20,123 bases of DNA from the IMG/VR virus record IMGVR_UViG_3300023179_000630, positions 1 to 20,123 of that record; one strand, written 5' to 3'. The notes beneath the pieces are model-generated. The model was not told the DNA's origin and ran no database searches. It was given only the letters and a program-made list of their open reading frames with translations. Below, one piece after another: positions 17,765-20,123 of this stretch (position 1 is the stretch's first letter; every line of letters starts with the position of its first letter). Source of the stretch: a virus. A program made the position numbers and the translations under genes.

Positions 17765-17789
17765 CTTAATTTCCCCTCCAGGCTATAAT
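17761..17789 (+). promoter_or_regulatory. early sigma70-type promoter (TTGACT, 17 nt, TATAAT)
   Basis: The -35 at 17761-17766 contains the TGA stop (17762-17764) of the previous gene. A perfect TATAAT lies at 17784-17789, spacer 17 nt. It drives the gene at 17821, and possibly the tRNA and the genes beyond. Confidence 0.92.
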
Positions 17790-17820
17790 GATCACATCAT
17801 TGAGAGAGAGGAGAAGCAAG

Positions 17821-18060
17821 ATGAAGGTTTCTGAACTGATTGAGCTGTTAGAAGGTTTCGATGCAGATGCCGAAATCCATTTTACGTATGGGTCAAATGA
17901 CTACTGGCACACGCAGGTCGCACCGGCTGTTCGTGATGTATTCGAGGGTGATATTGTCTTTAGCGAATATCACAGAATGGACACGCTGCTTGAAGATTAT
18001 GAGGGCCCGGAAGACGAAGAAGACGACCGAACGGTTCGTAGGGTCGTAGTCATTCAATAA
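17821..18060 (+). CDS. small phage protein of the ELIELLEGFDADAEI type
   Basis: The ATG at 17821 is chosen because GAGGAG (17807-17812) precedes it and because the upstream ATG at 17788 overlaps the -10 box. The 79-residue product starts KVSELIELLEGFDADAEIHF. This is a common pattern in short phage and bacterial proteins, consistent with a small alpha/beta fold. An acidic run follows (EDYEGPEDEEDDRTVRRVVV). The function of this group is unknown. The gene ends 8 nt before the tRNA and is probably on the same transcript. Confidence 0.78.
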   Translation: MKVSELIELLEGFDADAEIHFTYGSNDYWHTQVAPAVRDVFEGDIVFSEYHRMDTLLEDYEGPEDEEDDRTVRRVVVIQ

Positions 18061-18068
18061 TAGTTTCA

Positions 18069-18144
18069 GGGCTGGTAGCTTAGGGGTCAAAGCGTTCGAC
18101 TCATAATCGATTGATCGTCGGTTCGAATCCGACCCGGCCCACCA
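18069..18144 (+). tRNA. tRNA with CAU anticodon (elongator Met or Ile2)
   Basis: The 76-nt gene folds as a full cloverleaf. The acceptor is GGGCTGG/CCGGCCC (one G-U) and the D stem is GCTT/AAGC. The anticodon stem is 95-99/107-111 with a U-U mismatch at the first pair, and the loop CTCATAA places CAU at 18102-18104. The T stem is GTCGG/CCGAC with loop TTCGAAT. CCA is encoded. G1-C72 pairing rules out an initiator tRNA. CAU then means elongator Met, or Ile if C34 is modified to lysidine. Phage tRNAs usually supplement codons that are rarer in the host. It lies 18 nt before a TTG-started gene. Confidence 0.95.
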
Positions 18145-19208: not shown

Positions 19209-19318
19209 CGCTATGAAATACCGCTATGATTTCGCTGTATTTCCCGCTATGAAACCGCTATGAAAACTCTATGAAATCCCGCTATGAAACCGCTATGAAA
19301 ACTCTATGCTCTACTATG
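19209..19318 (+). repeat. helically phased CGCTATGAAA iterons
   Basis: About ten degenerate copies of CGCTATGAAA/CTCTATGAAA start at 19209, 19222, 19233, 19245, 19256, 19267, 19280, 19291, 19302 and about 19313. The spacing is 11-13 nt, roughly one helical turn. A larger 35-bp unit (19243-19277) is repeated almost exactly at 19278-19308. No frame with a start and ribosome binding site covers it. The stretch 19103-19208 before it holds nothing I can assign beyond a 20-codon frame with a poorly placed ribosome binding site. Such arrays are typical binding sites for an initiator or repressor. Confidence 0.8.
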
Positions 19319-19433: not shown

Positions 19434-19680
19434 GAAATTAAATCAACTCAGATCAGTAGCGCAATTTGTTTTAGGCGCTAGGGCTGTGGGCCACCCGCCC
19501 CGTCCATCCCAGGTGTGCCTTTCGAATCATTAAAGACAGTATACTGGGGCGCGGAAATTAAAACAACTGCAGGGAGTAGCGAAAGTGTCTGAGGCTAACG
19601 CCCACCCTCGCCGTCCATCCCGAGCGCTGCTCATCGAATCAGTAAGATCATTGTACGCGTTCGCAAGAAATAAGTCAACC
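19434..19680 (+). repeat. diverged 113-120-bp tandem repeat (two full, one partial copy)
   Basis: Copies start at 19434, 19554 and 19667 with GAAATTAAATCAACT, GAAATTAAAACAACT and GAAATAAGTCAACC. The first two share AGTAGCG about 23 nt in, GTCCATCCC about 68 and 58 nt in, and TCGAATCA about 89 and 80 nt in. They end with a related segment (TTAAAGACAGTATAC against TAAGATCATTGTAC). The third copy is only its first 30 nt and runs into the C-poor tract. An 8-bp inverted repeat (ACTGATCT at 19424-19431, AGATCAGT at 19450-19457) brackets the start of copy one. No coding frame spans the unit. It may be a replication origin, a structured RNA gene or a regulatory array. Confidence 0.7.
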
Positions 19681-19721
19681 TGAATGTTGTAGGGGGAAGA
19701 AGTTTTTGGGAAGAAAAAAAG

Positions 19722-19750
19722 TTGACTTTATTTTTGGGAAAATTTATAAT
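19722..19750 (+). promoter_or_regulatory. early sigma70-type promoter (TTGACT, 17 nt, TATAAT)
   Basis: Consensus TTGACT at 19722-19727 and TATAAT at 19745-19750 are separated by 17 nt. The first half of the spacer (TTATTTTT) matches the other early promoters, while the second half has G and A where they have C. It drives the C-less gene. Confidence 0.92.
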
Positions 19751-19806
19751 GTTCTTGTTGTTAGGGAAAAGTAAATTTTAATTTTATATTTTAAGAGAGA
19801 GAAAAT

Positions 19807-20070
19807 ATGAATAAGTTTAGTAAAGTTTTTATTGAATTGTTGAATGATAATAGTATTAGTGAAGAAGAATTGAATTTGATTAATGAAGTAGTTATTAAAG
19901 AAGGTTGGTATAGTTTTGGTAATTATAGAGGTGAAGTAGAAGTAGATTATATTGGTAATGAATTGGAAAATGAAGAAGAATTGAGAAAAGAAAGTAGTTA
20001 TTTTTGTGAAGAAGTATTTGATAATATAATTTACTTTGAAGAAAATGTTTTAATTAAAGTAGTAGTTTAA
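19807..20070 (+). CDS. C-less early gene: acidic protein, unknown function
   Basis: The 87-residue protein lacks Ala, Pro, Thr, His and Gln entirely, because every codon for these needs a C. It is rich in Glu, Asn, Val and Ile. Sequence includes SEEELNLINEVVIKEGWYSF and then NYRGEVEVDYIGNELENEEE. Synonymous choices also avoid C: Phe is only TTT, Ser only AGT, Asp only GAT and Arg only AGA; one TAC is the single exception. The ATG has AGAGAGAG upstream as a weak ribosome binding site. It has its own consensus early promoter and its own terminator, so it is a single-gene unit. It is not recognised. The pattern of acidic helices and strands could suit a DNA mimic or a host-inhibitor, but nothing shows this. 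Confidence 0.8.
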   Translation: MNKFSKVFIELLNDNSISEEELNLINEVVIKEGWYSFGNYRGEVEVDYIGNELENEEELRKESSYFCEEVFDNIIYFEENVLIKVVV

Positions 20071-20078
20071 TTAATAAT

Positions 20079-20111
20079 AAAGAAAGGAACTGTAGCAAGT
20101 TCCTTTCTTTT
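20079..20111 (+). terminator. strong rho-independent terminator
   Basis: The arms AAAGAAAGGAACT (20079-20091) and AGTTCCTTTCTTT (20098-20110) form a perfect 13-bp stem with loop GTAGCA, followed by T. It closes the C-less gene's transcript 8 nt after the stop codon. The right arm holds the first C bases of the region in any number. Confidence 0.9.
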
Positions 20112-20123
20112 CTGCCCCAGTTG

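Follow-up and report, generated by a model that had tools for sequence, protein, structure and literature searches.

Transcription units nearly free of cytosine, predicted from sequence, recur in many phages

A 20,123-nucleotide (nt) virus fragment, IMG/VR record IMGVR_UViG_3300023179_000630 (referred to throughout as the window), ends in a predicted transcription unit whose sense strand is almost devoid of cytosine (C). Comparable units are present in at least 17 further phage contigs that represent about 12 lineages and have normal overall composition, and on the evidence of these sequences C-free transcription units form a recurrent class in many phages. A full-text search of open-access papers found nothing relevant on cytosine-free phage genes or transcripts, in agreement with the sequence-only reading that had drawn attention to the unit and knew of no gene class defined in this way. 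The recurrence of such units in unrelated phages and in diverged copies of one gene suggests that something in the infected cell penalises C in these messages. The explanation that we tentatively prefer, at slightly less than even confidence, is that purifying selection against C keeps the transcripts C-free from start site to terminator, with a C-reading agent making each C costly.

The window unit comprises the following features, all on the plus strand.

19681 to 19725: C-free run of 45 nt that reaches into the -35 box
19722 to 19750: sigma-70-type promoter, TTGACT-17-TATAAT, agreeing with the consensus at 11 of 12 positions
19756 to 19806: putative 5′ leader, C-free, with a purine-rich ribosome site, AAGAGAGAGA, at 19793-19802
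19807 to 20070: gene of 87 amino acids, matching no known family, C-free except for a single silent TAC codon (20034)
20079 to 20110: terminator-like hairpin, AAAGAAAGGAACT-GTAGCA-AGTTCCTTTCTTT

The stretch from 19681 to 20089 contains only the three C residues that the sequence-only reading had counted, beside 165 A, 150 T and 91 G, with the refinement that two of the three fall outside the predicted transcript. C19726 lies within the -35 box TTGACT, and C19754 lies four bases past the -10 box, at about -3 and upstream of the start site expected from that box (about 19756-19757). Because both precede the start, the transcript would carry one C, at position 20034, ahead of the terminator stem; the first C beyond the gene, at 20090, is inside that stem. 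The longest run without C is 279 nt (19755-20033), compared with 31 nt elsewhere in the window, where every 200-nt stretch outside the tract holds at least 17 C. Dinucleotide-preserving shuffles never produced a C-free run of 180 nt. The window unit fits the proposed class, with one C between start and hairpin stem, G retained and normal flanks.

The encoded protein lacks Ala, Pro, Thr, His and Gln altogether, where 18.7 such residues would be expected (P=7e-10). That the absence of C nevertheless originates in the nucleic acid rather than in the protein, as had been proposed, is borne out by synonymous codon choice: with the codon usage of the phage the same protein would be expected to contain 26.6 C (lowest of 2000 draws, 12), and one was seen. 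With the protein held fixed and the phage's own codon usage applied, log10 P of zero C in the window gene is -16.4, or about 1e-16, and the corresponding values for the other units range from 1e-6 to 1e-20.

The further units were found by three pattern scans of 2.9 million IMG/VR viral contigs, in which a promoter or ribosome site was followed by ATG and then by 120-140 C-free bases; prevalence is not estimable from these scans because they rely on consensus promoters and ribosome sites. Across 17 phages there are 26 blocks of 160-2305 nt, and the runs with no C at all extend to 1493, 1382, 922, 885 and 853 nt. Four C-free genes follow one another in phage G028 and three to four in G030, G031 has a single C-free gene of 109 amino acids, G036 has 2305 nt with one C and at least five genes, and G038 has 1493 nt with none; further units occur in G039, G034, G035, G041, G043, G045, G033, G040 and G044, as well as in G037, a phage of 51% GC. 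Large myoviruses make up most of the set, but several lineages stand outside the T4-like group, and the G036 terminase is nearest to those of Methanobacterium and Gordonia phages. Similar tracts spread across the genome by general compositional bias would have spoken against a specific property; there are none elsewhere in the window, and in 2.01 Mb of UvsX relatives fetched irrespective of composition no stretch of 110 nt or longer is without C. Twenty C-free proteins compared with Pfam and PHROGs gave nothing convincing, and no family library names them.

Scan matches L152, L154, L155 and L174-L176 were dropped as AT-rich or strand-skewed sequence. The promoter pattern, applied to 85,000 genomes of bacteria and archaea, likewise returned only AT-rich or strand-skewed matches, so that at this sensitivity no member of the class appears outside virus records. 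One of the bacterial contigs, L175 (CASEAD010000090.1), has 8 kb of extreme strand skew with 7.5% C and 21% G on the matched strand, a C poverty different in kind from that of the phage units. A 420-nt C-free stretch with no evident long reading frame lies at the end of another contig, L197 (12420-12839, G042), from a phage with 24% C.

The limits of the C-free blocks largely correspond to those of predicted transcripts, with the start sites of all units placed from -10 boxes. In most blocks the C-free sequence sets in close to where transcription from the first recognisable promoter would start, and several blocks stop where the stem of an intrinsic terminator begins, as at AGGA/CCTAATAGGTCCTTTTTTT in G033 and GGGAGGG.../CCCTCCC in G044 (the slash marks the block end). 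Untranslated gaps and trailers are also C-free, with 7 C in 3.1 kb of noncoding sequence from 11 units. The first promoters of the window unit, G028, G030 and G031 retain the C of the -35 box, and promoters internal to a block have lost it (TTGACT to TTGATT). In G038 (L193) divergent transcripts arise from 1122-1155, and the minus strand is C-free leftward and the plus strand rightward, which indicates that the absence of C follows the direction of transcription. The minus-strand frame of that contig, at 560-1121, is C-free for its first 100 nt or so, a likely membrane anchor, after which C becomes frequent and the encoded sequence abounds in Pro, His and Gln. The 853-nt C-free block of G034 (L186, about 830-1740) is flanked by two copies of TATAATATTGCGCGAATAAGAATGATTCTTATTTAGA, each directly after a promoter, which possibly represent a promoter plus an attenuator or small RNA; L188 has a similar hairpin.

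Among the other phages of the class, the absence of C persists in diverged homologues (28-76% identity) while synonymous sites turn over, as the sequence-only reading had asked of such a property. A 104-amino-acid family of G030 has 1-3 C in about 312 nt in four phages, at identities of 100, 90 and 70%. In the 70% pair, C is involved in 2 of 68 base differences, whereas a control gene from these phages has 123 of 289. Genes adjoining the L183 copy have about 10% C, which makes the trait one of the gene rather than of its surroundings. A C-containing homologue had been named as evidence to the contrary, and this family has one: a 44% homologue in G028 carries 19 C in 309 nt (6%), whereas C is all but absent from the members with 70-100% identity. 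Matches between C-free proteins of unrelated phages have 28-36% identity and E values of 2e-6 to 3e-10, both partners being C-free (G031/G039, 34% identity, 3e-10; G038/G034, 2e-6; G035/L191, 6e-8; G043/G044, 2e-7); a reversed-sequence control gave no E value below 0.017. Since the loci were found by their C-freeness, C-containing homologues could have been missed; a search for two families among 50,697 phage records found none.

The proportions of the remaining bases bear on whether C was converted or excluded. Across the 17 units the A:G:T composition deviates from that of the phage's own small genes, with C removed, by a mean of only -0.019, -0.009 and +0.028, respectively. T is 0.094 below the value expected from C-to-T change (p=9e-7), A and T are roughly equal, in noncoding sequence as well, and the share of G is on average unchanged. 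At codon position 2 the lost C is replaced mainly by A, and Ser is retained as AGT although the TCN codons are gone. Opposite the C residues of the G028 homologue the C-free gene has G 8 times, T 5 times and A 3 times. The unaltered A:G:T proportions, together with replacement by G, T and A alike, indicate that C is forbidden rather than converted.

Under the explanation preferred here, the units would be expressed while each C in nascent or finished RNA is costly, and a C-free message could still be made and used under such attack. The candidate agents are, in order, a blocked or starved incorporation of cytidine triphosphate (CTP), either as CTP shortage or as a chain-terminating CTP analogue; a C-directed RNase; and an Alc-like factor halting RNA polymerase on cytosine-containing DNA. 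A block at C incorporation or a C-directed cut in RNA would strike coding and untranslated sequence alike. The small products may, as a guess, serve early functions needed under C-directed attack. Precedents exist for attacks that read cytosine or CTP. RNA polymerase is stopped by T4 Alc when the DNA contains cytosine (PMC8076793, PMC2993671), and with the dC-specific nucleases Alc provides an example of unmodified cytosine being read, although T4 escapes through genome-wide hydroxymethylcytosine and not through C-free genes. Prokaryotic viperins make 3′-deoxy-3′,4′-didehydro-CTP (ddhCTP), an anti-phage RNA chain terminator (PMC12926258), and offer an analogy in that incorporation of a C-type nucleotide ends the RNA, the described case being a phage-type polymerase.

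Several observations weigh against a general cost on C. The minus-strand transcript of G038 is C-free for about 250 nt and then abruptly becomes C-rich within one reading frame, a switch left unexplained if every C is costly. C-free stretches run on past the last gene, where a block to CTP incorporation would matter less. The known ddhCTP acts on the phage-type RNA polymerase of T7, whereas these units have sigma-70-type promoters. A search of 22 phage records found no homologue of T4 Alc although the T4 positive control was found, but many of these records are incomplete, and the search would not reveal a factor that is unrelated to Alc or only distantly similar. Partly C-depleted genes also exist, so the rule is not absolute. 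In one of these, a cassette gene of a relative of the window phage (L148, about 2256-2576, G027), the remaining C is nearly all in GpC (AGC, GGC, GCN) and there are no NAC or NTC codons; the rule differs between phages.

Evasion of Rho and avoidance of structure both fit less well than a C-reading agent. Evasion of Rho is the stronger of the two, though unlikely: a C-free RNA has no rut site, so that poorly translated early operons would be spared host Rho and would need intrinsic terminators. In its favour, Rho occurs widely among bacteria, the absence of C is a feature of the RNA that includes untranslated gaps, and several units do finish at hairpins resembling intrinsic terminators. Rut sites are C-rich and G-poor, which makes a C-free transcript their compositional opposite. 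The pattern of depletion is not the one that escape from rut recognition would predict, however. Rho prefers YC, yet in partly depleted genes synonymous loss of C is not confined to one 5′ neighbour and is not preferential after a pyrimidine: the NNC ratio is 0.37-0.38 after T or C and 0.13-0.21 after A or G in the most depleted genes, and 0.50-0.51 and 0.55-0.58, respectively, in the less depleted ones. There is no overall enrichment of G, and a handful of C residues would be harmless to Rho evasion, yet runs of 1.4-1.5 kb hold none.

Selection for unstructured RNA, the first purpose suggested by the sequence-only reading, is somewhat less probable again. Without C there are no G-C pairs, and the message would be open for translation or safe from double-strand nucleases. 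The structural part of the suggestion stands, in that predicted minimum free energies are -0.06 to -0.12 per nt for C-free units and -0.16 to -0.23 for the phage background, about half, in all 13 units tested. As a purpose it is disfavoured: any C-free RNA folds weakly, so openness follows automatically from the absence of C; G and U, which can still pair with each other, are not reduced relative to A; and single C residues in open contexts should be tolerated. The unchanged share of G thus argues at once against structure avoidance, Rho resistance and enrichment for R-loops.

Two further proposals of that reading are improbable, and about equally so. Transcription-coupled deamination, by which the exposed non-template strand would turn C into T over time, would account for the way strand and direction track transcription, for the change of internal -35 boxes from TTGAC to TTGAT, and for the sparing of GpC in one partly depleted gene. 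The T excess that it requires is absent, the gain at codon position 2 is of A and not T, the C residues of the homologue are matched mostly by bases other than T, Ser survives as AGT, and C-rich sequence lies 300 nt into a C-free transcript of G038. Stable R-loops formed by a C-free, G-bearing transcript, for instance in priming replication, would agree with a GC skew close to 1 over the unit, and T4-type phages can start replication from R-loops. As the purpose of the units they are disfavoured, since G is not enriched on average, several separate coding units are present in one phage, and units occur outside the T4-like group as well. Chance or protein composition, meaning small acidic proteins that simply need no C codons, would agree with the abundance of Glu, Asp, Lys and Asn in the C-free proteins, but it is refuted by the synonymous-site probabilities and the C-free untranslated parts and retains a negligible likelihood.

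If selection by a C-reading agent is the correct explanation, some factor of the infected cell reads one nucleotide at a cost sufficient to purge it from untranslated sequence, and the price paid includes the loss of five amino acids. Dedicated cytidine-free operons in many kinds of phage would then represent three-letter coding for expression during a C-directed block, and may point to an undiscovered, widespread C-targeting defence or to a phage-borne shut-off factor, an extension that we hold a little more loosely than the selective explanation itself. Finding such a factor would reveal a presently unknown mechanism of defence or takeover; the C-free units would be a direct sequence signature of the phages that face it, and studies of how RNA is made and degraded would gain natural three-letter genes.

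The genomic setting of the window unit is that of a T4-superfamily early-gene cassette. The window encodes a T4-type DNA polymerase, UvsX and a DnaB-like helicase, and two further features adjoin or overlap the unit.

19436 to 19672, plus strand: noncoding element, GTCCAYCCC...TCGAATCA, in two copies that have diverged, immediately preceding the unit, found by alignment and pattern search
19997 to 20123, no strand assigned: 127-bp overlap with contig IMGVR_UViG_3300023179_000720 (G001), positions 1-127, which extends downstream

At the same site the close relatives L126, L132 and L148 have a variable array of small early genes, all of which contain C, each with its own TTGACT...TATAAT-type promoter, such as TTGACTTTATTTTCGCGGCAGGATATAATG, and a purine-rich GAGAGAGGAG ribosome site. 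The window unit stands in place of one of these ordinary cassettes and keeps their promoter and ribosome-site frame (TTGACTTTATTTTTGGGAAAATTTATAATG, AAGAGAGAGA), in which the sole C is that of the -35 box, the spacer C of neighbouring early-cassette promoters being absent. The relatives' cassettes have normal C, in contrast to the window unit, whose leader has none and whose gene has a single silent C. All the marks of such a cassette are present: a local sigma-70 promoter, a purine ribosome site, a small open reading frame, and a variable array downstream of the GTCCAYCCC...TCGAATCA element. A shared frame with so little C makes the window unit look adapted to the early array of its own phage rather than foreign scrap.

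The noncoding element is about 115 nt long and precedes the early array in one or two copies in the window group (L126, 10720; L132, 3591; L148, 1031 and 1142). Phage G031, which otherwise differs, has it as well, ahead of its C-free gene (L157, 6950-7075, minus strand). The element has no Rfam match, and tRNA prediction on it was empty. A cyanophage origin of the window group was considered and dropped, psbA not being found in the relatives, and the MKV gene of L185 showed no similarity to window 17788-18060.

Searches of Pfam, PHROGs and phage sequences with the window protein gave no match, and its only homologues among viral contigs, cultured phages and 25 related records are from the same phage. 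The C-free G041 protein resembles it weakly (E 0.027, shuffle p 0.004), and comparison with three members from G039, G031 and G041 gave a summed p of 0.019 and an hhalign probability of only 3%, so that kinship with the G041 protein is suggestive only. AlphaFold2 models of the window protein, alone and with the three putative relatives, reached predicted local distance difference test scores of 51 and 56, insufficient for a fold search.

G001 is a second contig of the same virus and opens with the final 127 bases of the window. The overlap resembles an assembly k-mer break, which suggests strain variation at such sites, and C-free genes lie at or close to the ends of several contigs (window/G001, G032 and G030). 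At 19220-19310, ahead of the early array, the window has tandem repeats of the CTATGAAA type (CCGCTATGAAA, ACTCTATGAAA) that vary in copy number among relatives. A tRNA with a CAT anticodon lies near the array at 18069-18144, and G028 has one too (L158, 10751-10825).
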